Positions 1-61,300 of a stretch of DNA of 64,000 bases are shown here, one piece after another. Both the position numbers and the translations under genes were made by a program. The stretch is from contig NC_089981.1 of assembly GCF_036417845.1 (NCBI RefSeq), positions 23,022,001-23,086,000 of the forward strand, in the 5' to 3' direction. The stretch is from Apteryx mantelli. Taxonomy: Eukaryota; Chordata; Aves; Apterygiformes; Apterygidae. Under the pieces are notes generated by a model that saw nothing but the letters and a program-made list of their open reading frames with translations, had not been told where the DNA came from and ran no database searches. Positions within the stretch are counted from its first letter, which is position 1. Every line of letters starts with the position of its first letter.

Positions 1-3000
1 CGGAAGTGTGCTCCTGGAGCGAGTGGTTCGATGTCGACTTCCCCTCCTCGGGGCCCGGCCAGGGAGACTTTGAAACCTACCAGCACATCAGGGCCACCGG
101 ACAGAAAGTCTGTCAGCACCCTAAAGAGATCCAGTGCCAGGCGGAGGACTACCCCGAAGTTTCCATCGAGCACGTCGGGCAGGTCGTGCAGTGCGACGTC
201 AACTTTGGACTGGTGTGCAAGAACGAAGACCAGCTTGGCAAATTTAAGATGTGCCTGAACTACAAGATCCGTGTCCTCTGCTGCAGCCCAAACCCGCTCT
301 GCCCTCCCACCACCATCACGCCCACCACCAGCCCCACCACCACCACCAGCCCCTGGATCACCACCACCTCCACGGAATCACCCACCACAGTCACAACCTC
401 CACCAGCACCCTCTCCACCTCCCCCAAAACCACACCACCAACCACCACCGTCACCAGCACGCCCACGTCAACACCCACCGTCACCCCCACCACCACAACC
501 TCCACTAGCACCTGTATCTCGGAAGTGTGCTCCTGGAGCGAGTGGTTCGATGTCGACTTCCCCTCCTCGGGGCCCGGCCAGGGAGACTTTGAAACCTACC
601 AGCACATCAGGGCCACCGGACAGAAAGTCTGTCAGCACCCTAAAGAGATCCAGTGCCAGGCGGAGGACTACCCCGAAGTTTCCATCGAGCACGTCGGGCA
701 GGTCGTGCAGTGCGACGTCAACTTTGGACTGGTGTGCAAGAACGAAGACCAGCTTGGCAAATTTAAGATGTGCCTGAACTACAAGATCCGCGTCCTCTGC
801 TGCAGCCCAAACCCGCTCTGCCCTCCCACCACCAGCCCCACCACCACCAGCCCCACCACCACCACCAGCCCCTGGATCACCACCACCTCCACGGAATCAC
901 CCACCACAGTCACAACCTCCACCAGCACCCTCTCCACCTCCCCCAAAACCACACCACCAACCACCACCGTCACCAGCACGCCCACGTCAACACCCACCGT
1001 CACCCCCACCACCACAACCTCCACTAGCACCTGTATCTCGGAAGTGTGCTCCTGGAGCGAGTGGTTCGATGTCGACTTCCCCTCCTCGGGGCCCGGCCAG
1101 GGAGACTTTGAAACCTACCAGCACATCAGGGCCACCGGACAGAAAGTCTGTCAGCACCCTAAAGAGATCCAGTGCCAGGCGGAGGACTACCCCGAAGTTT
1201 CCATCGAGCACGTCGGGCAGGTCGTGCAGTGCGACGTCAACTTTGGACTGGTGTGCAAGAACGAAGACCAGCTTGGCAAATTTAAGATGTGCCTGAACTA
1301 CAAGATCCGCGTCCTCTGCTGCAGCCCAAACCCGCTCTGCCCTCCCACCACCAGCCCCACCACCACCAGCCCCACCACCACCACCAGCCCCTGGATCACC
1401 ACCACCTCCACGGAATCACCCACCACAGTCACAACCTCCACCAGCACCCTCTCCACCTCCCCCGAAACCACACCACCAACCACCACCGTCACCAGCACGC
1501 CCACGTCAACACCCACCGTCACCCCCACCACCACAACCTCCACTAGCACCTGTATCTCGGAAGTGTGCTCCTGGAGCGAGTGGTTCGATGTCGACTTCCC
1601 CTCCTCGGGGCCCGGCCAGGGAGACTTTGAAACCTACCAGCACATCAGGGCCACCGGACAGAAAGTCTGTCAGCACCCTAAAGAGATCCAGTGCCAGGCG
1701 GAGGACTACCCCGAAGTTTCCATCGAGCACGTCGGGCAGGTCGTGCAGTGCGACGTCAACTTTGGACTGGTGTGCAAGAACGAAGACCAGCTTGGCAAAT
1801 TTAAGATGTGCCTGAACTACAAGATCCGCGTCCTCTGCTGCAGCCCAAACCCGCTCTGCCCTCCCACCACCAGCCCCACCACCACCAGCCCCACCACCAC
1901 CACCAGCCCCTGGATCACCACCACCTCCACGGAATCACCCACCACAGTCACAACCTCCACCAGCACCCTCTCCACCTCCCCCAAAACCACACCACCAACC
2001 ACCACCGTCACCAGCACGCCCACGTCAACACCCACCGTCACCCCCACCACCACAACCTCCACTAGCACCTGTATCTCAGAAGTGTGCTCCTGGAGCGAGT
2101 GGTTCGATGTCGACTTCCCCTCCTCGGGGCCCGGCCAGGGAGACTTTGAAACCTACCAGCACATCAGGGCCACCGGACAGAAAGTCTGTCAGCACCCTAA
2201 AGAGATCCAGTGCCAGGCGGAGGACTACCCCGAAGTTTCCATCGAGCACGTCGGGCAGGTCGTGCAGTGCGACGTCAACTTTGGACTGGTGTGCAAGAAC
2301 GAAGACCAGCTTGGCAAATTTAAGATGTGCCTGAACTACAAGATCCGCGTCCTCTGCTGCAGCCCAAACCCGCTCTGCCCTCCCACCACCAGCCCCACCA
2401 CCACCAGCCCCACCACCACCACCAGCCCCTGGATCACCACCACCTCCACGGAATCACCCACCACAGTCACAACCTCCACCAGCACCCTCTCCACCTCCCC
2501 CAAAACCACACCACCAACCACCACCGTCACCAGCACGCCCACGTCAACACCCACCGTCACCCCCACCACCACAACCTCCACTAGCACCTGTATCTCGGAA
2601 GTGTGCTCCTGGAGCGAGTGGTTCGATGTCGACTTCCCCTCCTCGGGGCCCGGCCAGGGAGACTTTGAAACCTACCAGCACATCAGGGCCACCGGACAGA
2701 AAGTCTGTCAGCACCCTAAAGAGATCCAGTGCCAGGCGGAGGACTACCCCGAAGTTTCCATCGAGCACGTCGGGCAGGTCGTGCAGTGCGACGTCAACTT
2801 TGGACTGGTGTGCAAGAACGAAGACCAGCTTGGCAAATTTAAGATGTGCCTGAACTACAAGATCCGCGTCCTCTGCTGCAGCCCAAACCCGCTCTGCCCT
2901 CCCACCACCAGCCCCACCACCACCAGCCCCACCACCACCACCAGCCCCTGGATCACCACCACCTCCACGGAATCACCCACCACAGTCACAACCTCCACCA

Positions 3001-6000
3001 GCACCCTCTCCACCTCCCCCAAAACCACACCACCAACCACCACCGTCACCAGCACGCCCACGTCAACACCCACCGTCACCCCCACCACCACAACCTCCAC
3101 TAGCACCTGTATCTCGGAAGTGTGCTCCTGGAGCGAGTGGTTCGATGTCGACTTCCCCTCCTCGGGGCCCGGCCAGGGAGACTTTGAAACCTACCAGCAC
3201 ATCAGGGCCACCGGACAGAAAGTCTGTCAGCACCCTAAAGAGATCCAGTGCCAGGCGGAGGACTACCCCGAAGTTTCCATCGAGCACGTCGGGCAGGTCG
3301 TGCAGTGCGACGTCAACTTTGGACTGGTGTGCAAGAACGAAGACCAGCTTGGCAAATTTAAGATGTGCCTGAACTACAAGATCCGCGTCCTCTGCTGCAG
3401 CCCAAACCCGCTCTGCCCTCCCACCACCAGCCCCACCACCACCAGCCCCACCACCACCACCAGCCCCTGGATCACCACCACCTCCACGGAATCACCCACC
3501 ACAGTCACAACCTCCACCAGCACCCTCTCCACCTCCCCCGAAACCACACCACCAACCACCACCGTCACCAGCACGCCCACGTCAACACCCACCGTCACCC
3601 CCACCACCACAACCTCCACTAGCACCTGTATCTCGGAAGTGTGCTCCTGGAGCGAGTGGTTCGATGTCGACTTCCCCTCCTCGGGGCCCGGCCAGGGAGA
3701 CTTTGAAACCTACCAGCACATCAGGGCCACCGGACAGAAAGTCTGTCAGCACCCTAAAGAGATCCAGTGCCAGGCGGAGGACTACCCCGAAGTTTCCATC
3801 GAGCACGTCGGGCAGGTCGTGCAGTGCGACGTCAACTTTGGACTGGTGTGCAAGAACGAAGACCAGCTTGGCAAATTTAAGATGTGCCTGAACTACAAGA
3901 TCCGCGTCCTCTGCTGCAGCCCAAACCCGCTCTGCCCTCCCACCACCAGCCCCACCACCACCAGCCCCACCACCACCACCAGCCCCTGGATCACCACCAC
4001 CTCCACGGAATCACCCACCACAGTCACAACCTCCACCAGCACCCTCTCCACCTCCCCCAAAACCACACCACCAACCACCACCGTCACCAGCACGCCCACG
4101 TCAACACCCACCGTCACCCCCACCACCACAACCTCCACTAGCACCTGTATCTCGGAAGTGTGCTCCTGGAGCGAGTGGTTCGATGTCGACTTCCCCTCCT
4201 CGGGGCCCGGCCAGGGAGACTTTGAAACCTACCAGCACATCAGGGCCACCGGACAGAAAGTCTGTCAGCACCCTAAAGAGATCCAGTGCCAGGCGGAGGA
4301 CTACCCCGAAGTTTCCATCGAGCACGTCGGGCAGGTCGTGCAGTGCGACGTCAACTTTGGACTGGTGTGCAAGAACGAAGACCAGCTTGGCAAATTTAAG
4401 ATGTGCCTGAACTACAAGATCCGCGTCCTCTGCTGCAGCCCAAACCCGCTCTGCCCTCCCACCACCAGCCCCACCACCACCAGCCCCACCACCACCACCA
4501 GCCCCTGGATCACCACCACCTCCACGGAATCACCCACCACAGTCACAACCTCCACCAGCACCCTCTCCACCTCCCCCAAAACCACACCACCAACCACCAC
4601 CGTCACCAGCACGCCCACGTCAACACCCACCGTCACCCCCACCACCACAACCTCCACTAGCACCTGTATCTCGGAAGTGTGCTCCTGGAGCGAGTGGTTC
4701 GATGTCGACTTCCCCTCCTCGGGGCCCGGCCAGGGAGACTTTGAAACCTACCAGCACATCAGGGCCACCGGACAGAAAGTCTGTCAGCACCCTAAAGAGA
4801 TCCAGTGCCAGGCGGAGGACTACCCCGAAGTTTCCATCGAGCACGTCGGGCAGGTCGTGCAGTGCGACGTCAACTTTGGACTGGTGTGCAAGAACGAAGA
4901 CCAGCTTGGCAAATTTAAGATGTGCCTGAACTACAAGATCCGCGTCCTCTGCTGCAGCCCAAACCCGCTCTGCCCTCCCACCACCAGCCCCACCACCACC
5001 AGCCCCACCACCACCACCAGCCCCTGGATCACCACCACCTCCACGGAATCACCCACCACAGTCACAACCTCCACCAGCACCCTCTCCACCTCCCCCAAAA
5101 CCACACCACCAACCACCACCGTCACCAGCACGCCCACGTCAACACCCACCGTCACCCCCACCACCACAACCTCCACTAGCACCTGTATCTCGGAAGTGTG
5201 CTCCTGGAGCGAGTGGTTCGATGTCGACTTCCCCTCCTCGGGGCCCGGCCAGGGAGACTTTGAAACCTACCAGCACATCAGGGCCACCGGACAGAAAGTC
5301 TGTCAGCACCCTAAAGAGATCCAGTGCCAGGCGGAGGACTACCCCGAAGTTTCCATCGAGCACGTCGGGCAGGTCGTGCAGTGCGACGTCAACTTTGGAC
5401 TGGTGTGCAAGAACGAAGACCAGCTTGGCAAATTTAAGATGTGCCTGAACTACAAGATCCGCGTCCTCTGCTGCAGCCCAAACCCGCTCTGCCCTCCCAC
5501 CACCAGCCCCACCACCACCAGCCCCACCACCACCACCAGCCCCTGGATCACCACCACCTCCACGGAATCACCCACCACAGTCACAACCTCCACCAGCACC
5601 CTCTCCACCTCCCCCAAAACCACACCACCAACCACCACCGTCACCAGCACGCCCACGTCAACACCCACCGTCACCCCCACCACCACAACCTCCACTAGCA
5701 CCTGTATCTCGGAAGTGTGCTCCTGGAGCGAGTGGTTCGATGTCGACTTCCCCTCCTCGGGGCCCGGCCAGGGAGACTTTGAAACCTACCAGCACATCAG
5801 GGCCACCGGACAGAAAGTCTGTCAGCACCCTAAAGAGATCCAGTGCCAGGCGGAGGACTACCCCGAAGTTTCCATCGAGCACGTCGGGCAGGTCGTGCAG
5901 TGCGACGTCAACTTTGGACTGGTGTGCAAGAACGAAGACCAGCTTGGCAAATTTAAGATGTGCCTGAACTACAAGATCCGCGTCCTCTGCTGCAGCCCAA

Positions 6001-7230
6001 ACCCGCTCTGCCCTCCCACCACCAGCCCCACCACCACCAGCCCCACCACCACCACCAGCCCCTGGATCACCACCACCTCCACGGAATCACCCACCACAGT
6101 CACAACCTCCACCAGCACCCTCTCCACCTCCCCCGAAACCACACCACCAACCACCACCGTCACCAGCACGCCCACGTCAACACCCACCGTCACCCCCACC
6201 ACCACAACCTCCACTAGCACCTGTATCTCGGAAGTGTGCTCCTGGAGCGAGTGGTTCGATGTCGACTTCCCCTCCTCGGGGCCCGGCCAGGGAGACTTTG
6301 AAACCTACCAGCACATCAGGGCCACCGGACAGAAAGTCTGTCAGCACCCTAAAGAGATCCAGTGCCAGGCGGAGGACTACCCCGAAGTTTCCATCGAGCA
6401 CGTCGGGCAGGTCGTGCAGTGCGACGTCAACTTTGGACTGGTGTGCAAGAACGAAGACCAGCTTGGCAAATTTAAGATGTGCCTGAACTACAAGATCCGC
6501 GTCCTCTGCTGCAGCCCAAACCCGCTCTGCCCTCCCACCACCAGCCCCACCACCACCAGCCCCACCACCACCACCAGCCCCTGGATCACCACCACCTCCA
6601 CGGAATCACCCACCACAGTCACAACCTCCACCAGCACCCTCTCCACCTCCCCCGAAACCACACCACCAACCACCACCGTCACCAGCACGCCCACGTCAAC
6701 ACCCACCGTCACCCCCACCACCACAACCTCCACTAGCACCTGTATCTCGGAAGTGTGCTCCTGGAGCGAGTGGTTCGATGTCGACTTCCCCTCCTCGGGG
6801 CCCGGCCAGGGAGACTTTGAAACCTACCAGCACATCAGGGCCACCGGACAGAAAGTCTGTCAGCACCCTAAAGAGATCCAGTGCCAGGCGGAGGACTACC
6901 CCGAAGTTTCCATCGAGCACGTCGGGCAGGTCGTGCAGTGCGACGTCAACTTTGGACTGGTGTGCAAGAACGAAGACCAGCTTGGCAAATTTAAGATGTG
7001 CCTGAACTACAAGATCCGCGTCCTCTGCTGCAGCCCAAACCCGCTCTGCCCTCCCACCACCAGCCCCACCACCACCAGCCCCACCACCACCACCAGCCCC
7101 TGGATCACCACCACCTCCACGGAATCACCCACCACAGTCACAACCTCCACCAGCACCCTCTCCACCTCCCCCAAAACCACACCACCAACCACCACCGTCA
7201 CCAGCACGCCCACGTCAACACCCCCTGTCA
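1..7230 (+). repeat. Tandem array of 14 near-identical 519-bp CysD-linker units
   Basis: Units recur at exactly 519 bp (173 codons). The CSW codon of each copy starts at 9, 528, 1047, 1566, 2085, 2604, 3123, 3642, 4161, 4680, 5199, 5718, 6237 and 6756. In each unit the CysD (CISEVC to NPLC, 103 codons, 10 cysteines) is followed by 70 codons rich in Thr, Pro and Ser. Read by eye, copies differ at only a few places. Copy 1 has a variant linker start and GTG instead of GTC-type spelling in its IRV codons. A Lys/Glu difference follows the STSP motif (Glu in copies 3, 7, 12 and 13). CTCAGAAG occurs only at the copy 4/5 junction. The last linker diverges after about 7218. Confidence 0.95.
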
Positions 7231-7296
7231 CCACCACCACCATCACCCCTTGGACACAATGTTTCTGTAAAATTGGGAATGCCATTTTTTCACCTG
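1..7296 (+). CDS. MUC5AC: MUC5AC central exon (partial): CysD/PTS array
   Basis: This is the 3' part of the large mucin exon, open without a stop from the window edge. The sequence shows 14 CysD domains separated by Thr/Pro/Ser-rich linkers. After the last linker it ends in a TQCFCKIGNAIFSPG segment, equivalent to the TQTCFC segment that closes the central exon in mammalian MUC5AC. The donor is CTG|GTAATT at 7297 (phase 1). The first bases belong to the preceding unit's CISEV segment, so the array continues upstream. Ser/Thr-rich linkers are expected to be O-glycosylated; WSEW in each CysD fits the C-mannosylation consensus WxxW. Confidence 0.92.
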
Positions 7297-10200
7297 GTAA
7301 TTTTACTCATTTTTATTAATCTATTTGGCTCTTTTTATTGGACTGTGTTTTCAATTTTCATCATTTTTTTCCTAGATTTTATTTTAATATTTTCATGGCT
7401 TTTACATGGAAATTTTTTATAGCCTTGTGGGTTGTTTTTTTTCAGTGTTGGCATCTTACTCCTTTTTCTTTCTTTTTTTAGGTGATGTGATTTACAACAG
7501 GACAGACAATGATGGATGTAGCTTTTATGCTATCTGTAGTCAAACATGTTCAGTTGAACGATTTACAGGATCCTGTAATTTTACTACACCTCTAACCACT
7601 ACTTCCCCTGAAACATCTACGAAAACTACATCAATTCCTCTGACTACCACTTCTCCATCCCCAGGTTGTTACTCTAGTACTCACCCTCCCTTAAAGGTAT
7701 GTAATTACTGTGTTATTTTAGAATTTTTGAATTAAAATATGTATTATGTTGACACCAAAAAGAAACATTTTTCATTCTTTAAAATTTATATTTCCAGAAT
7801 GCCAAAATAAGCATTGTTCGTGATGAACAATACACATTCTCATTGCTGCATAATGATATACAATTGTTATGGGCCTTCTCGATAGAATTTTTTGCAAACT
7901 GAGAAAGCAAACAGCAATAATTTTTTCTAGTGATTTTATCGTTAGTAAAACATGCAGGCTTCAAAGCACTCTATTACATAAATAACATACATTTGTGCAT
8001 ACATTCTCTTTTTTTTTTTTCCTAATTGTCTGCGCTGATGGTGAGGTAAAGTGTACGTAGCCAGCACAAAGGGCATTTATTTCCTCCACCTAAAACCTAC
8101 CTTGAAACCCTCACCTCAGGCGAGTTCCTCATGCAGAAGCAATAGCTGCAACTAAGGCTATCGCTCCTTTTCAGTATAAGCCACCTTTTTAATTGTCTAG
8201 AATAGAATAGAATGACCTTGTACTGTCAGTGGAGATTTGCCTTGTAGCCTTTGTTCCAGATCTGAAAAGCAAGTAACAGTTTTGGATCGTCCATGTCATT
8301 GTCAGAAGTATGAATGCCTGTAGTCAATATTACAAATCATTAATACCACAGATTCAAGAGAAGGAACATACATTCCTTTCCAATACCACCATCACTGAAA
8401 ACATTATATACCACTAGATTAAAAACATGGATAAAGTTCATACCTGTTTGTAAACTCCTGTGACAGCAATTTTTGTTCATTTTGCAGCCTGGCCAAATAA
8501 TGAAATTATCCAACTGCTCAGAACTCATCTGTGGGGAAGACAGCAAAGAAAAAGTAAATCCAATAAATTGCCCACCTGTAAAGGAAATCACCTGTGCCAA
8601 TGGACATCCATCAGTGCTGGTACCTGATGAAAATGGCTGCTGTTACCACTATGAATGTCGATGTAAGCATCAGTAAATTAAAGAATTACATTTTTGGAAG
8701 CAAGCAAAACTTTGCACAGAATACATGGGGATTTTTTTCTCTGTATTGCTCTAGAAATTGTGGTACATTCAGTTAAGTTTCTAAATTCTTTCTTCTACAT
8801 TAATTTTAATATTAATCTTCTAAATACTTTCTCTCCATCAGGTGTGTGCGTTGGATGGGGTGATCCTCATTATATTACTTTTGATGGAATCTACTACACT
8901 TTCCTTCAAAACTGTACTTACGTCCTGGTGAAACAGATTGTACCTAAATATGACAACTTCCGTATTTACATTGACAATTACTACTGTGATTCAAAAGATG
9001 GGCTTTCCTGTCCGAAATCGATTATTATTTTCTACAAATCTTCAAATGTGATGCTGACCCGTGAACTAATGAATGGTGTGATGAAGAATGTGGTAAAATA
9101 TACATTTTTTTATTTCTCTAAGTCTGTTTTTCCAAAAGAGAAATAAGGTCCATTGGCCTTACTGATTCTCATTTGTAATACAGTCTGTTAGAATATCATA
9201 TCCCAGAGATGACTAGGACAGAGGCATCACTAGGAGAAAAATATTACACCTATTTCTAGGAATAAAATGTCAGAAACATTAGAAACAGCACTGTACAAAT
9301 ATGAATATATTATGTTCATCCATACGTATATATAAATAACAGGAGGAAACAGACTAATACAGCTGACAGAGAGAAGACAGAAAGAATGTTTGCGCTGTTG
9401 CTTGAGGATTAGTCTTTCATGAAAATTAATACATTGTGTGTTCACTTACTTAAGTAAACACATTACGAAGAAACACAGCAACAGATGATAAGCATGCTTC
9501 TTTTCTGATGGTGAAGACTGGTGAAGACTGGCCCATATCAATTGTATATTCACTGATGGTAAAGACTGGCTGGCTGACTAGGGATTCCCTCCTCTGTATG
9601 GGGAACTTCAGACATTAAACAGAGCCATGGCATGACTCCTCTCCGATCACCTGCTGGGAAGGGAGGTACAGCTAAGAAAAGGGGTGAACGGGGGTGTCCC
9701 CTTGTCCTCATGATCCTAAATTAGTGTTGGTGGCTGGTGAAAATCAGAAGTCGGTTATGCTGCCAGTGTTACCCTGGGGAATTAATTAGTTGGTAAGAGA
9801 ACTCAAATAGGTGGGAGGATATGTTTGTCAACCTGCACTCTGCCCTTGCAGAGCCGCACCAAGCTCTATTTGCTCCAGCCAGAAAGCTATGTGGAAACAG
9901 TCCAGTGATTCCCTGTGAGAGAAAATAGGAACTGACAGTTTTAACTCCTACTTCATCCCAATCCAATGAGAAGAAAGTTGCAGAATAATTCCCAACAAAA
10001 AGTTATTAAGCAAATATGCCACCTTCATTAGCTCGTGTAAGATGGACTGAAAATGGAAGAGCTTAGATTAAAGAATAAATATGACAGCTAAGTAAAAACA
10101 GCACCAGGCACATTTGTCTTCATCTTGAATTGAGAGGACTCTCCCAATGCTAGGGAATGTGCAGCGTTGGGACTATGTGATTTTGTAGGAATTTCAAAGT

Positions 10201-13200
10201 TATTACATAATAATGGTGGGAACATTTTTGCAATTAAAAGAAAACTACCACTAATTTCTATGTGGAAAAATTTACATTAAACAAAATGATGTTATCAATA
10301 AAATACTTCAGTTTAGAATGATGTACATTAGCACACAGTCTGCCCAAACATGGCATATAGAGGCCACTTCATTATTGTTGTTGTTGTTGTTATTATTATT
10401 ATTCTGTCACTCTGGAACAATATAGCCACACAAGCTGAAAATGAATGCAGCATATGTTGTTATTGCAATGAAAACTGTCATTGAATATGATGCATGATGA
10501 ATGAGTTATGCATAATTATAAAGATCAGTAAATACATTATTTAAAACAATCAAATAGAAGCAGCCCTTATTCTGAAGTTTTTTTCTTTTCTTTTAACCCT
10601 ACATCCAGATTTACTTCAATGGAAAGATTGTCCAACCAGTGTTCAAGAAAGATGGCATTTCTATTTCAATGCTGGGCATCAATATGATTGTTGAAATACC
10701 AGAGATTGATGCAACCATCACCTTTAGTGGGCTGATTTTCTCAGTGAAGCTCCCCTTCAGCAAATTTGGCAACAACACTGAAGGACAGTGTGGTAAGACA
10801 GATACATTATTGATTCTTTCTCTACCCTCCCATGGTTATTCTCACCCGCTCTGTTTATGCAGGCTAACCATAGACAGAAATTTTTCAAACAGCAGTAAAA
10901 TGGAATTGAGAACAATTTTGGTCTTAAACTTCTTAAGATCAATAGCTCAATATTACGAACACCTGCTTTTTTGATTTTGGGGTTGGGGGTTTGGTTTTTT
11001 TTTTTTGCCCCAAACTAAATTAAAATTCGTATAAATGTAGAGAAAGCATTCCCTGTGAAGCAGGGCACCTGATACATTTCATGTGCAAATCCCTTCTAAA
11101 TTTGGTATGTATTGTGCACCTCAGATGTGGCTTATGCAACTTACCTTGCTCCTCTCTGATATCTTCCAGGAACATGTACAAATAACAGATCAGATGAATG
11201 CCGCTTGCCAAGTGGCAAGATCATTTCCTCCTGTCCCCAAATGGCTCATCACTGGGAAGTTGATAATGACAACAAATCCTGCCATGTAACACCACCGCCA
11301 ATTGTAACCACACCTCCACCATCGCCTCACTGTAAAACGCCTCTTTGCAAGCTTATCAAGAGCAAGTAAGATAAAAACTGAATGAATTTGCTCTTCCTTA
11401 GCTAGACAAAGCTTTCTCAGTATCTTATGAAATGAATAAGAACTATAGCCCTATCATGTGATCATATCTGAAAATATCAGCTTAATGACAAGATATGGGT
11501 AGTAAAAGGCCTTTGCAAAAGAAACTGCTCTTCTTTAAGGACTTGCAGTCCCAAAGACACCTGAGCAAGGAGAGGAAAAGTCAGCAAATCAGGGATACAA
11601 CAAGAACCAGAATTCATACTCCCTGGGTTTCAAGCACATGGATTTATGTTATCTTTCTCCCTCCCTGCTTTCCAGGCTATTTCCACTAGTATAACTACTA
11701 ACTTAGCTAACTTAAATAAGGACTGAACTTTAAATTTGAACTGGATCTTTAATACAAACAGCAAAGAGCCTGCTAATCAACCAGGCTAACACCAAAAGTA
11801 TCCTTCAATATTTGTGCATTTTGTATAAAACATACAGCTCCAAAAGCACCAGCACTAACAAAGGCCTGTTTCCTACATACCTATTTCCTACACCTGCGTG
11901 AACTACAACCAAAAGCTTGTTCTTCAGCTGGATCATTTATAAAAGCCTCTTGCACATACTTGCTGTAGTGTCTAATAACTTATGAGCTATTAGATGTTTC
12001 CACCTCTTGGGCACTTCTAGCATCCCTTTTTCTTCTACCTAATGCAATTGCCTTCCTCAAGAAACTTCTGGTGTCAGACAAATGAAGAGTTGTGTACACA
12101 TACACAAACATTATGACCATTAGCATCTTTAGAAAAATAGGCTCAAAACAGTTCTAAGGGCTTCAAATTTCCTAACTTTTCCTACCCTGAATCTATCTCC
12201 CAGATTAGTGGCCATTCTTAGAGTTAATTCTGTTTCCTGTAATGTGTGCCTTCTTGAAGGAGAGAACAATGTGCCTTTAAGTAGGAAGGTGCTGTCTGAC
12301 AAGATCTGATTTTATATAATGACTGGTTAACACGAAAGGGTTTTGGTTTCTTTTCTGTCTCAAGAGTTTTTGAACCATGCCATGATGTGATACCACCAGA
12401 CCCATATTTCAAAGGCTGTGTTTTTGATGGATGTCGTGTATCTGATGAGTCGGTACAGTGTTCCAGTTTGGAGATGTATGCTACAGAGTGTGCTGCTAGA
12501 GGTATCTGCATTGACTGGAGAGGAAAGACCAACTTTACATGCCGTAAGTACTGCAGAACTCAAAAATGTATGTGTAAAGCCCTATTAATTAGGGTTCTAT
12601 TCAGTAAACACACCTAACATCTAACACTTGACTACGATATTTAACCTAGAAAAATGTACACAGACATCTTTACCAACGGAAGCCCCAGATGACAAAGGCC
12701 AAGCCAGAAACACTTAAGAACATCTGCTACAAAAAGTATTTGATACCAATTTTTGACCTATTTTCTTCTTTTCCCTTACAGCATACAACTGTCCAACAAA
12801 CACAGTATACAAGGCATGTGGGTCCATTAATCCTCCTACCTGTGACCCAAGGTATGAAAAGACCAGAAAAATTACAACTGCTAATCTTTGTCTTCTTTTC
12901 TATTTACCCAGCCACTATCCTTAGAAAATGGAATTACTAAAAACTTTCATAGTGAAACATATCTCATGAATTTGTATAAATTACTCAAGTTTTAAATATC
13001 TCATTGATCAGCTCTGTGAATCTGCACTTCCTGTTGTACTTCAAAAAATGTAAATTCTTCGTCTCCCTTTTATATGACATTGTGACCTTCAACACATGCT
13101 GCCCTCTCTCCTGCTTTACAGCAAAAACATTGTACTCAAATATATGCATTCCTCCCACTCTAGCTCTGTTGAGCACAGCGGCTATGGTGTAACTGAAGGA

Positions 13201-27136: not shown

Positions 27137-27566
27137 CTTTTTTCCTTTTTTTTCCCTTTTTTTTTCTTTTCCTTTTTTCATCTTTTCCCCTTTTCCTTTT
27201 TCCTCCCCTTTTTTCTCCCCTTTTTTCTCTTTTTCTCCTCTTTTTTCTCCATTTTTCTCCTCTTTCTCCATTTTTCTTTTTTCCTCCTTTTCCTTCCTTT
27301 TTCCTTCCTTTTGCCTCCTTTTTCCTCCCTTTTCCTCCTCCTTTTCTATTTTTCTCCTTTTTCTCCTTTTTTCTCCTCTTTCCTCCTCCCCCTTTCCTCC
27401 TCCCCCTTTCCTCCTCCCCCTTTCCTCCTCCCCCTTTCCTCCCCCACCTTTTCCTCCCCCACCTTTTCCTCCCCCACCTTTTCCTCCCCCACCTTTTCCT
27501 CCCCCACCTTTTCCTCCTTTTCTTCTTTCTCCCTTCTTTCCTTTTTCTCCTCCTTTTTTTTTTTTT
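27137..27566 (+). repeat. 430-nt polypyrimidine tract with internal tandem repeats
   Basis: The plus strand is almost entirely C and T with only scattered purines. Its 3' half resolves into four copies of a 14-nt CCTCCTCCCCCTTT unit from 27382, then five copies of a 15-nt CCTCCCCCACCTTTT unit. Long open frames on both strands here are a by-product of the low complexity. Confidence 0.93.
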
Positions 27567-51000: not shown

Positions 51001-54000
51001 GTACTTCAACAAATCTGACAATTTTAACCATGTAAATAATGAAATAAGTTGCTATGAATCCATTCCACAGTAAATCAATTCTTTCCTTAGAGACTACCTG
51101 AAAACTAAAAGTTGGATCAAGGTGGGATCCAAATTCAGATCCTCATTTGACTGTTTGGGACCTTTTCATTTTTTGAATGCCTTTCTTTCCACACAACAGT
51201 ATTGCTGAAGAATCCCTACAGATGCTGGATTACACAAGCCATTTTTTTTCTCTTTATCAAACATCTGAGTCAGAAAATACTTAGCATTCCTTCTACCTTT
51301 TCTCAGGGTTCAACTGCCATACAGCCAATCTGGAATTACAATAGAGAAAAGCAACATTTACATGAAAGTAATCAGCAAATTAGGCATTGTGTTGATGTGG
51401 AATGAAGATGACAGTATCCTGGTAAGAACAGCTCCCGAAGACAGAGGCTTCAGGACAGCTTACTTAGAAGCATCTGGTGTTAAATTTTCCATGGGCCTTA
51501 CTTTCATGTGGGACCATTCGCAGATATTGCTTCCATAACTGTGTACACTCAGAGCTTATGCATGTGCACATCAAGTTGCCAAACTTGAAAGAAACAAAGA
51601 TTGTGTATAAAAGGGAAACTAGGTATATAGGTATATAGGCCTAATGTCTAGGTATATAGGCCTAATGTCTATGCATTCAGAGACCATAGAGCTACTCTTT
51701 GGTTAGACCAGACCCCATCTGTTTGGGGTTTACTATTGCCTTCCCATCTCTTACTGCCAAGCAATTCTTCCTTAAGATAGGTTTTCATCCAGACCATCCT
51801 GAAGAAAATTACATGGATTTGCTTCTAGTGGATAGCAGACTTGTGCTTAAAAGTGGGGTGAAAAATCACTTTCATTATACCACTAGCAAACTAGCATTAT
51901 TATAGAAGGACCCACTTACCTCCTCAAATGTCATTTTCTAGTAGAATTCCACTTTCTTAGGACTTCATTTTCACTGTGGATTTGATTTTCTTTCTGAAAA
52001 ATTAGTACAGAGTGAAAGAGGCTGAGAGTAATATATATATTACAATGAAAACTATGTCTGCATGAATAGCTTGGGCTCTACATTTTTAATAAAATCCTAG
52101 CCAACTCTTCATTCTATCACCCAAGTTTGAAGTAGATTGCACAGATCAGAATTTGAATTAGATTGTAGATTAAATTACACAGCTCTGATGAAAAATACCT
52201 AGTCGCAGCAGGTGCAAGTGCTTTCAGTGGTCTTGAATATATTTTAGAATGTGTATACTAACTTCTGTCAACTTTCTCTCCACCATTCTAGCTGGAATTG
52301 AATGAGAAATATGCCAATCAGACCTGTGGGCTTTGCGGAGACTTCAATGGCATTCCAATTTACAATGAGTTCTATTCAAACAGTAAGTTTTTTAAACAAT
52401 AAAAATTGGTTTCTAGTGTCTCCAATATTTTTGGTATTCTTTTAACTCTATCATCAGCATTCCTCTTTCCTGTCCTGCTGAAGGTTTTACCCAGAAGTAT
52501 GATTCAATCTCTGTAGAAAAATATGTAGTACAGAGATCAGATAACCTAATTTAGTATTTTAAGTATATTACTGGTGCTAACAAGTGACTGCATGTTTCTT
52601 GTGTGCCACTGATTTATCTACCTATTCAGCTAACCCCATAGAGATGAGCCAGATTCACACTTACTGGTATAAATAAATATAGAAACATATCCAAGGAAAC
52701 AAAAGGCAATTGTAATATATAGTCAGTACCTTTATTGTTTCAGTTCTGTCTTAAAATTAGAAATGCTTCTAATAATAACAAATTTATTCTGATTTGTGAT
52801 GCCTAGCAAATAGCTTTTTTTCTAGAACTAATGAGCCATTAAGCACAGTGCCACAATCTTGAATATGTAATCCCTTTCCACAAAGTAAATCCATATTTGC
52901 CTGCTGATTTGCATAAAATCTTCTCTTCATCTGTCTCTCCTTTCTCAGCTTGAGCCTTTTCCTAAGCCTTGTCTCACAGCTGTCTCCATTGTCCAAATCC
53001 ATTTAAATCTTCTCTCTTACCTGTATGGGCTGAGTATCATCTGAAAACAGTTTATTGTTTTCCAGTAAAAGTCCTAGTTTGCACCTAGATGTAACAGACA
53101 GAATTGTTTTCCAACGTACTTTTCCCAATGTACTTTTTCAAGGGAGCTGTGCAAGGTAAAATGAGACTGCGATGTCAGTGTTTACTTTGGAAGGAGTGGT
53201 GATTAAATGAAAAGACTTAAGGGAGCTAGCTGCCTTGGCCAGTCTACAACAGAATTCTTGAGAGGAGAAAAATATAAAAAGCAGTTGCATTAAAAAAAAA
53301 ACCTCATTATTAAACTTCTTTTGTACAGGTATTAAGATGACAGCCTTACAGTTTGGGAATATGCAGAAAATGGATGGGCCAACAGAAAACTGCGAAGACC
53401 CTACTTATTCCTTCCCAGATAATTGCACTGATAATTTTGTAAGGATCTTTTTGATTGTTCCTTTGTTTTTCTTTCAAATATATCTGTTCCCTTCTACAGC
53501 CTTGATAGGAAAAAGCCCTAGGGTGACAGTAAATTGAAAAGGGAGGTAAAATTCTATTAAAGAATAATTTAACACAATAACAATACTAAAAAATTGCTCC
53601 TCTCTATTTTGTGGAAGCTGTAATTTTTTTTTCCTCCCAAGGATAACATATGCCAGAAAACATTGAGCAGCTCTGCATTTGCAGAATGTAATGATTTAGT
53701 TGATGTTAGCAAGTACATTACGGCTTGCCAAGAAGACTTGTGCCGCTCTGAGGAGTCTAAGAATGCCTCGTGTATCTGTGATACCTTTGCTGAATACTCA
53801 CGGCAGTGTGCTCATGCTGGTGGGGAGCCTTTGAACTGGAGAAACACAAAACTATGCCGTAAGTATCACTGGAGGTAGCCTTACTTTATGCTCAGTGGCT
53901 AACAAGCAACAAGGTCCCGAATTCTGCTGAGGAGGCATGGGAAATTACAGGCAATTCAAGACTGTATCCTCCAGTAGGTTCCAATATACAACCTCTAGCA

Positions 54001-55349
54001 TGCAGACTTCAGAAAAAAAATGAAGCTTTTAATGCAAAATGTATTAAACACTGTCAAACACTCATGCGGATAGTCTTATTCAGAATTAAAGTGTAATATA
54101 ATTAACTGGGAAAGGGAACAAATAAAGGGGAAGAGAGAGAGAAAGAATGAGGGGTACATGCTGACTTGTATTTTTGTTCCCTTCCTTTTCTCATGGTGGC
54201 TACAGTATTTTTTATCTCCAGTGATAACTGATTGGGTCTTCACAGGTGTTTGGCTGGCTAGCCACTTGTTTACCACCTCCTGCTTGGTAGTGGGGAGTTT
54301 GCACCATTGTAATCTTCACAGAAATTTGCACTGAATTAAATACATACTAGATTATGGGGTGTAGCTGGTGAAACTGAGGTCACCAACATTTCTTCCAAAA
54401 TAAAATTCCCTGTGGTACTATCTGCCCTTCCAATGATACCTAAAAAATCCAAATATACTAAAGCTTTAGGAATGTAACTCCTACATTTCACTAGCAATAC
54501 AGGTGTTCTCAAGAAGGGTGTCTGCAGTAGAAACACAGGCCTTGCTGGCTTATGGGGCCATTATCTTGATATCCCTAGAAATCTAGTCAGAGAGCCACCA
54601 GTTCAGCACCAGACAGTTCTTTTTGGACACAGTCATGTAAAGCAAATCTGAACTGTGAAATATGGATTTGAGTGCAAATTTCAGGGAAGCCTGAGGGTGG
54701 ATCTGCAGTTTGGTGTGGCTTTACCTCTAGCTGTCAAACTTATATGAATGCGTATTTTCATACACAGTGAACTAAAAACACTTTTTACTGAAAAAAATTT
54801 TTCTCCTTTAAAATTTTAGCCAAGACATGTCCTCAGAACATGCAGTACCAGGAGTGTGGCTCCCCCTGCACTGACACATGCACCAATCTCGAACGATCTC
54901 AGTTTTGTGAAGAGCACTGTATGGATGGTTGTTTCTGCCCAACAGGCAAGTCCTTATGTCCTCACATCTCTGATCTCAATGAACAACAGCCTAGCTGTCA
55001 GATTTGGACAGGTTCCATGGGGCTTAAGGCTCCTACAATTGCATTTTTCACAGCTGCAACAAGTTCATTTGTCATTTATCGACTGAAAAAAGGCATCTGA
55101 ATTAATTGCCAGTACATGTGCAACATTCAGAAAACAGGAAAAACAGAACAGCACATACAGATCAAGACCACTCTCAACAAGCTACCTATACTACAATAAG
55201 TCCCTCCTTCAAACCAAGTTGAGCTTAAGAATACAAAAGTTGAACACTGTGCAAGCTGGTATAGTCATACTGTCCTCAGCAGAACTACGCTCTGTTACGA
55301 CAGCTGCAGATCTGTCTCCAAGACCATATTTAGGATTTGTAACAGACTA

Positions 55350-55390
<41 letters not shown>

Positions 55391-58300
55391 TTTATTTCCC
55401 ATGTATGTGAAACACCTCTTTAATTGATCAAGGTGTTTTTCTATTTAGGAACTGTGTTTGATGACATCAACAACTCTGGTTGCATCCCCCTTCAGCAGTG
55501 CCCCTGTATTTATAATGGCAACATCTACGCTCCAGGAACTTCTTTTTCAGCCCAGTGCCATTCCTGGTAACCTCTCTTACTACTCTAACTTGCTGTTTCC
55601 TCTCATTTATTTAATGAGTTTAATGGTTTACGATATTCAATTGCATAATCAATGATCTACCTGTTTATTTTACTGACTGCTACAGTTCCAAAATAACCCT
55701 AAAGAACATACTTTGTTTTATTTAGCAACAGTCTTAACCAGATTTGCACTCTAACTGAAGCTGATCAAAGTAAGGATTTACAATGTTTAGGTTTCTCACC
55801 AGTAACTTAAAATGCTTCCTCTTTGTTTATTTGTTCAAGCATTTGGACTTCTCCAAGGCGAATGAAGTAGCAGTCATTTATGTATCTGCAAATATTTATT
55901 TTCTCTGGATAAAGCAAGGGATGGCACAATGCAACCTTGATTTCCTAATAATTAATCCTCTGCCTGTGCTTTACCATATCACCTCAGAAAACAGATTTGA
56001 TCCGCCTCAGGAGCAGACATGAGGTTACACTTCTGTCAGTTTCTGACACATATGTATAACAAAATAGAAGAGAAATTTTTAATTTGGCATTGTGCCTTCA
56101 TGTTAGCTGCAAAGGACAAGCAATTGCTCATCTAGTACCTGGTGCGACAGAGTCCACCTGTCCAAAAGAGGAAAAAAATTGAATGAGCAATGTAACTGCA
56201 TACCAGAGTCATTCATTCCCTTTAATGCTTTGCATCACACAGTCACAATATTTTGGAAAGTCCTAAACCTAGGTTTACTTTGCATTCAAACTACAACTTG
56301 AAGGGAAAAACAGCAGCAAAATAGCTGAGCCTAATGTTGTAAAGCCTTTTACTCTGGATTACTGTCACTGATTTCAGCTAACTTCATCCTCTCTCTTCCA
56401 GTACCTGTAATGGAGGTCAATGGAGTTGCCAAGACCTGCCATGCCCCGGAATATGTTCAGTAGAGGGAGGCTCACACATTTCCTCATATGATAAAAAACA
56501 TTACAATGTCCACGGAGACTGCACTTATGTCCTCTCTAAGGTAGGCATCAGCAGATATTATGAGGGCATAAAGCCTTAAGCATTTCTAGAAAGAAAGGGT
56601 AATATCAATCAACACTCACGAGACTTACCATTTTTACGAAAGGACATTGAATGGTTTCTTGCTCAACTAGACTACTAGAGCATGTGCTGCCATTCAAATG
56701 AGTTAATTATCTATGGGTCAGATGTTATAGGATATCATGCAACAGTGTGTGGTGGTTACTGGGGAATTTCCAGTTCTGTGACGTAATAATTGCTGAAGAA
56801 CATTGCCTTTTTAAGAATTTGCTTAACCTACATTCTTCCGTGTGATTAATCCTACTCTTTCACTGAGTTGCATATATTTTTGCCATGTTACTGTATTTTA
56901 CAGTATTGGACCAAATGGTTCAATGAGTTCTGAAAAATTACAGTAGCAGTTCTGAAAAATAAAAGGAAAATAATTTCAAATTAATAAGACAAATATTTTT
57001 TCTGGGAAGTTCAAATATAGACAAATCAGTTCAAGTCAAATGATACATTTCATTTAGATTCTGAACATTTTAAAACACTTCTAAAAGTAAATCAGAAGAA
57101 ATAAAGAAATTAAAAGGTAATTTTAATCAAAACATTTCATTACAATAATGTGCAAATGAAATGCCTTGATCTTTTGGGTGCTTTTTCTGTTTATTTGTTG
57201 CTTTTTTTTCCTCCATTTTCACAGTTTTGTAAAGGCCAACATTTTTGTCTAGCATTGCTACCAGCTCCAGAAGGATGAAAAAACAGTAGAATTGAATAAA
57301 AAATCAGGAAGGCATGAATAAAAACTCTGAATTTGGACATCATGAAAGACGCAGAACCAGATTCAAATTCTCTCATTGTTCCTATTCAGTGCAAAAGGCA
57401 AAACTGAATCTTAGACCAAAGAAGGCACAGAATTTGGGAGAGTCTGGATCTTCTCCAGAAACAGAAATACTTTTTCAGAGCTGAAAGGGAATTTGACAGG
57501 GAAAGCTTCTGTAATTAGCCTTTGATGAGATAACTGCTGGCATATTTTTCTCAGCACTGTGAAGACGACACATTCATCATCCTGGGAGAACTACGCAAGT
57601 GTGGCCTGACAGACACTGAGACATGCTTGAAGACAGTGGCCCTCAGCATGAATAAAGGACAAACTGTAAGAAAGCAAAATAACTATGGAGAACAAGTATA
57701 AAAATTGTGGGGAGCAAAGAAGCTAGGCCTTAATCAGTCAGCCTTAATTAGCATTTCTCCCTTGAACAGTCAGCATGTGATAAGTACATGTTATTTTTTA
57801 ATCAATAAATATATTTTATTATGAAAATGAGATAAGTAGTAAATTTGGCTTTGCGCAAGTTCATTGAGAAAAATATTGTATTCATAAACCAGAAGAAAAG
57901 GTATTTTTTCTGCCAATTACATGAAGAAACCATAAGCTTTTAGGTTAGAGGCTGGAAATACAACAGTAAGGGATGTAATTCATCACAAAAATGTGGGGCC
58001 CTGCATTCGCAGAAACCAAGATGATGTAATTCACTAAGAAGGTGAGAAGACTCTTTAAAAATAATTCTTTTATGGCATGGAAAATTAATAAATAGAAAAT
58101 GAAAGGATTGTAAGTGGAACAGGGAGAAGAGGAGGTGAAATCAAAAAAACAACTCCCTTTAACAAATACCTCAGAGTGCACCTGAGTCACACCATTATTA
58201 CCCCTTGAGCCACAGTAATCTTTTACACTGCTGCCTGTTGTTCCTCTTCCTTACCAGCTCATTGTGGCCAAGCCTGATGGTGGCGTGTTTGTGAACTCGA

Positions 58301-61300
58301 TCTACACTCAGCTGCCCTTCTCAGCAGGTATATTTTCTCTAACAGTCTGTAAGTGATAAACTCAGAACTTCCCCTCCACACCTGCTTGTTATTTTACACC
58401 ACAGTAGAGCCGAGCACTCTGAGTTGTTCGGAACCCAGAATGCTCATGCCTTGGTTCTCCCTGGGATATTGCCAGAGTCACACAAGTGCTTTTGAAGCAG
58501 AAGTGTGAAGTTTGGTGTCAGAAAGAAATGTGAGGCCATACAGACATAAGCAAGAGTTTAAACGGAAGCAAACAGTATTTACACTCTTCTGATTTGGTCA
58601 TTGTGAGGATTTCTTCCATCTCACTGCCCAAAGGATTACTTCCTCTCCTGCTTGTTCAGATAGAAATTTGATTTTTGCTGTCTATCTCAGTAACTAATGA
58701 TTCTACCTGATATCTGTAACATCTAGATGCTGATTATTTTCCCTCCCCAGTGAAGTGAGGGCTCCAATGTATGCTATACAAGTTTAGAAACAAGAAAAAA
58801 AAGGGGGGGGGGGTGTTAATGTTCAGCGCCATCCCGTTCTTTCTTCTTATTTTCTCACAAGGAGTAATCTCCAACTATTTAATGTTGAGACAGCAAATAA
58901 AGTTAGCAACTTGGTAGCTGCAAGCAAATTTTGAGTTGTAAATTTTGATTTGTATTTCTGATTCATTTTTAAAAATATTGGCTTTATTTCACATCAGCAT
59001 TTGCAATGATTGCAATAGAAATTCAAGAAGAATAGTACAATGATGCACTGTTTCCAGCATTTGACCTCATCCAGAAAGTGATCATTCTATTTTTCATCCA
59101 TAGCTAATGTCACCATCTTCAGACCTTCATCATTCTTCATCATCCTACAGACAAATTTTGGCGTCCAGCTTGAAATCCAAATCACACCCATCATGCAAGT
59201 GTTTGTGCGGCTTGATCCTATTTTCAAAGACCAGACCTGTGGTAGGTGAATGAAATATAAAAACAACCTCTTGCTTAATGTGTTTGGTCTGATGTAAGCA
59301 GTATAAACTTTTCACTGCTTTTCAACAGGTCTCTGTGGAAATTTCAATGATGTCCAAGCTGATGACTTCAAGGCCATGAGTGGAGTAGTTGAAGGAACAG
59401 CAGCAGCATTTGCTAATACATGGAAAACTCAGGCTTCATGCCCTAATATCCAAAACAGTTTTGAGAACCCTTGTGCACTCAGCATTGAAAATGGTAAGTG
59501 CTTCTTAGAATTTTTCTAATTTTTTTTTTTCATAGCAAAACACTTCTATTGGCAAAAGAAAGCAAAAATAAGAGAATAAAGAATCTTACATGGTAAGTAA
59601 ACGGTAAATGCATGGTAAAAACATAAATTTGAAATCAGAAACACATATTAACAATGAAAGCACTAGGGATAAGTAATGAAGTAAAAGAAGAGTCCAGGAA
59701 ACATAAATGAAGGAAACTATGTGGTCACTGAAATCAGAGAGAGTGTCTAAGCTCACAACTTGGTGTCAGCAGAGTGGATTGCAGGAGTATTTTTGGTAAT
59801 CCTGTATTCAGCCTCTTCAGCAAGTCTGTTTCCATGGTCCTTAGGTCCTAGCAACCCTAGTCCACAAGCTGAGTGAAAAAAGAAAGGAGAGATTTGATGT
59901 AGTTTCAGAACTGGCTTCACAGACCAAGGCAGTGGGGTTTTGTGACTAATGAGATACAAAGGTTAATGTGAATTGGTATGGTTTGTTCTCTTCACAGAAA
60001 AGTATGCTCAGCATTGGTGTGGACTCCTAACCAACAGCAAAGGACCTTTTGCTGATTGCCACTATGCAGTGAATCCCTCAATTTACCACACGGTACTTTG
60101 TTAGACTGTTTTTCCCTTTAGAAACATTAGAAATAGTAGAATACTGACAATCAGTCAGTAAAGGACTGTCCCTGACATGTTTCTTGTATTATGCAATGCC
60201 TGTGTTTTAATTTCAGTATTGCAGCACTTCTTTCTCTCAATGTGTATTTCTGTTTGTGTTGTAACCTTACCTTATTTCAATTAACAGTCTTGGCATTGTC
60301 ATCCTGACCTGCCTGCAAATGCAAAGGCTGCTGCTTACTCCTGAATGGATATAAACATAAAATAGGAAGTTTATGTAAATGCATGTCAAATGCTTGTTTG
60401 AATATTATAGTGAATTGTTGTCTCCCCAGCCTTGTATCTCATTAATAACTACTTGGCAGAGAAAGCCCAGTATCTAATTAAGTAGCATCCTTCTGCTGTC
60501 TGTATCTTGCCCATCTTCCTTCTCACTATGAATCATCTAGATATGGATGCCAGTGAGATGACACAGCTAGACTGTGTACTGTGAATAGACTATGCTATTG
60601 TGCAGCATATTTGTAAATACAGGTTCAGGTAAACATGAAGCTGTTAGGACCACTATTTCCCAATAATAACTGCAGACACCAACTTAATTTCTATTACCTT
60701 CATTCTGCTCTACCAGGAAACTTAGAGGAAGAATGGAAAGTAACAAAGCTATGTTCATATTGTCTGTGCCTGAGTATATCTGAAGAAGGATGTAACGCAT
60801 GAGACCATAAACTTAGCATCCATTTTCTCTGGGTTGACAGTTATACAAGTGTTGAGACTTTATTTTTCCCTGCATTCCTAGAACTGCATGTTTGACACAT
60901 GTAACTGTGAAAAGAGTGAGGACTGCCTGTGTGCGGCTCTGTCTTCCTATGTGAGAGCATGTGCTGCAAAAGGAATCCAGTTGAGCGGATGGAGAACTGA
61001 TGTCTGTTGTAAGTACTGTAATCATCCCCTGTTCTAAGAAAGCCCATCAATAAAACCTATCCATCAAAGATTATTTTATATTGATTTCTAGGCAAACATA
61101 GTAAGCGTTGAGGAAGGGATTTTGATAAGTGCACTCCTAGAAGTAATTTTCTACTGTTCCCTTAGAATCAACCCATTACTAGCAAGAGTGAATACAAATA
61201 GATGGGAGACATAGCTAGCTTAGGAAAGAGACAGCTGTTACAGAAGTGCCTCTACCTTTTTCTGCGCAACTTTGAATTGACTGCAGCTTTACATATCACG

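Follow-up and report, generated by a model that had tools for sequence, protein, structure and literature searches.

The CysD array and its host gene

The window analyzed here is a stretch of 64,000 nucleotides of the Apteryx mantelli genome (contig C4:23022001-23086000; assembly of 1.504 Gb in 408 contigs), and it opens inside a tandem array of near-identical CysD domains in the central exon of a gel-forming mucin gene that occupies the position of MUC5AC. When window positions 1-7266 are divided in register, they yield 14 units of 519 bp, each composed of one CysD and a Thr/Ser/Pro linker; the array proper has its 3′ limit at about position 7223, so that units 21-34 lie at 1..7223 on the plus strand, in the 3′ part of the exon. 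Seven of these 14 units equal the consensus exactly, four depart from it at unit position 426 alone and one at position 2 alone; the first (unit 21) differs at five positions and the last (unit 34) at 16, all within its final 43 bases. An earlier note, made from the letters alone, had described fourteen 519-bp units that agree almost base for base, including third codon positions and Thr/Pro linkers, which holds. It had also regarded the copy number as open-ended at the window edge: 20 further units lie immediately upstream in exact register, bringing the total in the assembly to 34, with a start at C4:23011621. The observation is thus confirmed, and extended to 34 units in this assembly.

Only seven distinct sequences occur among the 34 units, the commonest accounting for 15, and the mean pairwise difference over 33 units is 1.34 bases per 519 (0.0026 per site). 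The bird neutral rate is near 2e-9 per site and year, at which this corresponds roughly to 0.6-0.7 million years of mean separation. The CysD protein is identical in all 34 copies across 104 residues, counted from the first cysteine, and its DNA varies at three sites only (2, 155 and 272), all silent; the repeats are therefore alike at silent sites too, as expected under concerted evolution. Each 173-residue unit carries ten cysteines. The linker measures 73 residues, with Ser or Thr at 51 of these positions. Within it, position 426, encoding K or E, is split 17:17 among the units, and four adjacent sites (316-321) alter residues in two units, while variation at site 449 is silent. The linker variant ITP is found in units 14 and 21 and also in the linker preceding unit 1. 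By inspection, without formal test, no higher-order periodicity was evident in the string of unit types.

The possibility that units were falsely added or merged during assembly has to be weighed against this regularity, since the runs of identical units (1-6 and 28-31) could conceal a miscount. The unit types, however, follow one another in non-periodic order with position-specific variants, no exact repeat in the exon exceeds the longest of 3,113 bp, all 3,114-mers being unique, the frame is open across the whole array, and the 264 kb around the window contain no N. Moreover, no array CysD was found on any other contig, 52 of at least 53 genome-wide PF13330 matches lying in the C4 cluster and one on C30. 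An assembly artefact is accordingly considered very improbable.

Assignment of the modules relied on profile and structure comparisons. PF13330 matched a stretch of three units with an E-value of 1.5e-94, its best stretch covering profile positions 1-88 of 88, and in the genome search it matched all 34 array units. The closest solved structure was the human MUC5AC CysD 8ov0 (E-value 4.6e-40, 140 bits), followed at 96 bits by another MUC5AC entry; 62 of 99 aligned residues are identical to 8ov0, and nine cysteine columns are common to both in the aligned part. These matches support the reading of the modules, already proposed in the earlier note, as predicted CysD (mucin CYS or WxxW) domains of a gel-forming mucin. 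When the unit DNA was compared with its own genome, the nine matches obtained all fell in the linker and the array itself was not recovered, probably since common words are skipped. Stretches on contigs C7, C29, C19 and C31 resemble the Thr/Pro linker alone, at 70-77% identity, and are possibly Pro/Thr/Ser (PTS) repeats of other mucin-like genes.

The whole array is contained in one exon, as had been claimed. The reading frame is unbroken from window position 3 to 7319, and the exon extends over about 19.45 kb, from about C4:23009845 to C4:23029296, with splice sites predicted from consensus and phase; the putative acceptor at C4:23009845 precedes the window by 12,156 bp. Open for 6,482 codons, the exon encodes 37 WxxW motifs, and 2,195 of its residues are Ser or Thr. 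Three further CysDs, 41-52% identical to the array CysD, precede the array in the same open frame, giving 37 in total. After the array, the unique 3′ end of the exon (7224..7296, plus strand, as are the following features) leads to a donor GTAATT after 7296, again placed by consensus and phase, and the next exon (GDVIYNRTDNDGCSFYAICSQTC...) would span 7482..7696. Further downstream, VWD4, the VWD domain of the C-terminal region, is divided between two open stretches, its first part at 8682..9143 (PF00094, E-value 3.5e-17) and its second at 10597..10971 (E-value 5.5e-4, with a score slightly below the curated cut-off); another open stretch carries a C-terminal C8 domain (12300..12614, by profile match). 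Two further stretches, at 18748-18885 and 19278-19706, match the cystine knot weakly (PF00007, E-values 1.4e-4 and 1.9e-3; 22.6 and 18.9 bits, below the curated cut-off of 24 bits). With three C8 matches before the central exon (C4:22992700, 23000402 and 23005596) and one after it (23034360), together with VWD4, the gene has the layout of a gel-forming mucin, i.e., three N-terminal D assemblies and one C-terminal.

To name the gene, its neighbors were considered. C8 clusters on C4 lie on the minus strand at 22.71-22.73 Mb and on the plus strand at 22.80-22.84, 22.87-22.90, 22.99-23.03 and 23.08-23.09 Mb; in the C8 genome search, the gene at 23.08-23.09 Mb showed no match following its central exon. 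An alpha-adaptin match at 22.68 Mb precedes the cluster, and a CUE match, as for TOLLIP, lies beyond it on the minus strand at 23.117 Mb. The chicken locus, as described in PMC1552070, contains Muc6 on the opposite strand, Muc2, an extra ovomucin gene, Muc5ac, and a Muc5b reported to be without a C-terminal VWD; the order of the human cluster is given in PMC9712336. The array gene sits between the ovomucin gene and MUC5B within the AP2A2-MUC6-...-TOLLIP block. Gene order thus supports the name MUC5AC used in the earlier note, whereas the D3 sequence is undecided: against solved structures it scores 394.5 bits to MUC5AC and 394.7 to MUC5B, so that the name rests on position. In the neighboring gene, MUC5B by position, D3 scores 535 bits to MUC5AC and 517 to MUC5B; its N-terminal exons (C8, TIL, VWD, C8, TIL by profile matches) occupy window positions 53624..62021 on the plus strand.

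Two observations stand apart from the mucin genes. Window positions 27137-27564 form a pyrimidine-rich low-complexity tract containing a 15-bp tandem repeat (9.6 copies at 97%; 27378-27517). In vertebrate mitochondria TGA encodes Trp, and a cytochrome b-like stretch at C5:76869236-76869688, with four TGA and one TAA inside, is probably a nuclear mitochondrial copy.

Base composition and parallel arrays

Within the single central exon, the array and the remaining sequence differ sharply in composition. The content of guanine and cytosine (GC) is 60.7% in the array and 38.5% in the single-copy part, with observed-to-expected CpG ratios of 0.58 and 0.125, respectively. At third codon positions (GC3) the array CysD reaches 0.806, whereas the three CysDs outside the array in this exon have values of 0.319, 0.289 and 0.374. 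Because array and single CysDs share one messenger RNA (mRNA), this gap is unlikely to stem from expression, translational codon use or regional GC. The comparison of single-copy CysDs with 34 homogenised homologs in one exon, which yields a more than two-fold difference in GC3, provides an internal control that is rarely available, so that the influence of homogenising repeats on the composition of coding DNA can be measured directly. In the 264 kb surrounding the window (263 bins of 1 kb), 23 bins have GC of at least 0.55, and all but one of them, 22, fall in the CysD arrays of MUC5AC and MUC5B. The sole such bin elsewhere, C4:23143001-23144000 (GC 0.688), is perhaps a promoter CpG island.

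The same contrast recurs in other repeated genes. PF13330 matched the genome at least 53 times: 37 matches in the central exon, 10 in the next gene, five in the gene at 22.82-22.83 Mb and one on contig C30. The next gene, at the MUC5B position, contains nine array CysDs in 654-bp units downstream of the window (C4:23094024-23099800), of which eight complete units lie within four differences of a reference; GC3 is 0.728 in the array versus 0.341 in its single CysD. Beyond this array, in C4:23099740-23100640, the frame meets a stop at C4:23099903, with a degenerate partial CysD after it; a donor-like CAAG|GTACTG after C4:23099732, matching in phase, could end the MUC5B exon earlier.

At the MUC2 position, the repeated unit of 1,707 bp appears to consist of one exon and one intron, with boundaries placed by prediction (C4:22824286-22829700). 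Over 1,707 bases, the second copy shows 0 differences from the first and the third copy 1; a fourth falls out of register after approximately 225 bases in an ungapped comparison. GC3 is 0.565 in the repeat versus 0.318 in the single-copy CysD, and the intron inside the repeat has 56.8% GC and a CpG ratio of 0.51; the first 0.9 kb of the stretch analyzed, ahead of the single CysD exon, has 33.5% GC. This intron bears on the idea that the copies owe their likeness and high GC to selection alone, whether on codons, RNA or protein. The protein is probably constrained, all three variable CysD sites being silent; nevertheless, both the GC-rich intron and the GC3 of 0.29-0.37 in the other three CysDs of the same MUC5AC exon and mRNA speak against such an account, and we regard it as scarcely conceivable that selection acts alone.

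One case outside the cluster, picked for its visible repeats, was added: a C8-domain gene on contig C9 (C9:15264450-15334300), putatively FCGBP-like, in which three C8 matches are repeated about every 7.83 kb, five times. Comparison of two neighboring copies over 4,000 bases shows 1 difference. GC is 58.1% in 4 kb inside the repeat but 39.0% and 39.4% in two 4-kb stretches outside, neither of which shows a match to the repeat. In the four arrays examined, raised silent and intronic GC therefore tracks the repeats and not the gene or the region. C8-domain genes are also repeated three times, about 43.4 kb apart, at C67:154724-319007, C67 being a contig of small size.

Origin of the identical copies

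Recent amplification or ongoing homogenisation had been proposed from the window alone; the near identity of third positions agrees with both, and the GC signature points to conversion. The far higher GC of the copied stretches than of their surroundings suggests continued overwriting among the copies. We consider it probable that the arrays undergo concerted evolution by out-of-register exchange and GC-biased gene conversion, combined with selection on the CysD protein. Under this model, one CysD-linker unit would have been multiplied to 34 tandem copies in the central exon of an avian MUC5AC. The near-identical 519-bp units could then pair out of register at meiosis, where crossovers would alter unit number and non-crossover gene conversion would erase differences. 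Because conversion repair would favor G and C, the array would drift to high GC, with purifying selection maintaining the CysD protein sequence. Since 519 equals 3 x 173, the gain or loss of whole units keeps the frame, and copy number can therefore vary with the protein intact.

Two further observations are relevant to this model. Among the eight MUC5B units, the four-gamete test fails at 6 of 28 site pairs, meaning that units recombined or sites mutated twice; this is evidence for exchange among the MUC5B units unless mutations recurred. In the MUC5AC array, exchange is presumed. In addition, minor alleles run from G/C to A/T at ratios of 6:1 in MUC5AC and 6:2 in MUC5B. High GC is thus not expected from mutation alone, and the composition of the array seems to require that fixation be biased towards GC.

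Several points weigh against this interpretation. The minor-allele counts are small, with the evenly split site 426 excluded and five of the MUC5AC sites linked in a single block. The GC3 values come from a single representative unit of each array, and the immediate flanks of the MUC2 array are intermediate in GC (0.475 before, 0.442 after). Along the MUC5AC array, the alleles of site 426 form 14 runs, an order indistinguishable from random (P = 0.11), and the array variants are too few for a decisive recombination test. Simulation also showed that a burst of duplication in blocks of two or more units yields such a site-426 pattern. Finally, a GC-rich founder unit is conceivable for the MUC5AC array taken by itself.

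The last two points lead to the main competing account, in which an already GC-rich unit was multiplied by tandem duplication in a single recent burst with no later exchange. Units as similar as these (0.0026 differences per site) are compatible with any recent origin. In the simulations (4,241 of 20,000 arrays were kept for allele balance under single-unit duplication), duplication of single units produced a mean of 2.0 runs at site 426 and never 14, so that a burst by single-unit duplication alone is excluded and larger blocks remain compatible. With blocks of up to two units, 14 or more runs arose in 73% of the kept arrays, and with larger blocks in 92-99%; where the maximum block size was five units or more, the mean was 24-27 runs, against which the observed 14 is rather low. 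However, the burst would require a GC-rich founder of its own in each of MUC5AC, MUC5B, MUC2 and the C9 gene, although GC3 is 0.29-0.37 in the five single-copy CysDs of the three mucins. It also fits poorly with the raised GC of the intron in the MUC2 repeat, with the GC-rich whole 4 kb of the C9 repeat and with the four-gamete failures in MUC5B. We therefore judge a single burst unlikely, and favor concerted evolution by exchange and biased conversion.

Birds are not known to possess PRDM9, and their recombination hotspots lie at CpG-rich DNA. It is conceivable, though rather doubtful at present, that the arrays act as self-made GC islands: exchange among tandem coding modules would lift GC, the resulting GC- and CpG-rich DNA would draw recombination, and the array would thereby grow and homogenise further. 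If true, extreme CysD number and mucus stiffness would be driven in part by a self-reinforcing process in several mucus genes at once, and not by selection alone.

Comparison with known systems

The kiwi gene would encode a polymerising mucin of the VWD type that carries 37 CysDs, with short, probably O-glycosylated linkers connecting 34 of these. The nine CysDs stated for human MUC5AC in the earlier note agree with PMC11912381, where human counts are given as typically nine for MUC5AC and seven for MUC5B; copy number is described as varying between haplotypes and apes (PMC11344006). As in the human genes, CysDs alternate with Pro/Thr/Ser segments in one large exon, but the kiwi exon has 37 CysDs, 34 of which are identical, with array linkers of 73 residues. 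Such a mucin is expected to cross-link mucus more densely than the nine-CysD human protein, and the proposal in the earlier note that it makes a network different from the mammalian one is plausible.

High CysD numbers have precedents. Mucin-5AC of the little skate has 27 CysDs and that of the catshark 19 (PMC11765562), and Oikosin1 with 13 CysDs and mucins with up to 25 CYS domains are listed in PMC4431476, which also states concerted evolution of CYS domains. The skate and catshark proteins share with the kiwi gene many consecutive CysDs; as presented in PMC11765562, they apparently lack the VWD ends and PTS parts of human MUC5AC, whereas the kiwi gene has VWD and C8 domains, Thr/Ser/Pro linkers and identical copies. 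CysD numbers of 25-27, and the concerted evolution of these domains, are thus already published; the count reached here, the identity of the copies and the GC contrast inside one exon are new. Among the matches listed in the open PubMed Central literature, no paper describes an avian MUC5AC array of this kind. The chicken locus has the same order, including the extra ovomucin gene and a MUC5B described as lacking the C-terminal VWD, and chicken MUC2 carries four CysDs (PMC3549977). Since chicken Muc5ac contained a large assembly gap in 2006 (PMC1552070), its array is not comparable.

The compositional signature also has parallels among other homogenised repeats, and the present arrays differ in residing in protein-coding exons with single-copy homologs of the same domain alongside as an internal control. 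Histone arrays are said, in work attributed to Galtier in 2003, to evolve in concert with GC-biased conversion. In ribosomal DNA (rDNA) arrays, homogenised copies are likewise GC-richer than the genome, and GC-biased conversion has been proposed for them (PMC6562748). According to the preprint PMC13345508, about half of human mucins, MUC5AC included, are more degenerate at array boundaries, and the ends of the 34-unit array degenerate likewise; the preprint also recounts earlier work placing the human mucin cluster in a recombination-rich region.

The closest functional counterpart is artificial. Mice secreting twelve consecutive CYS domains are reported to form a more robust mucus gel (PMC4431476), and the mean mesh of mouse colon mucus was 118 nm in the presence of the 12-CysD string, compared with 148 nm in its absence (PMC6861317). 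Like the kiwi array, this recombinant construct is a string of identical CysDs, but it is man-made and secreted beside the mucin, whereas the 34-fold string is natural and lies inside a polymerising mucin. The kiwi gene is thus a natural counterpart to the 12-fold string, and the relation of CysD number to gel mesh could be compared across birds.

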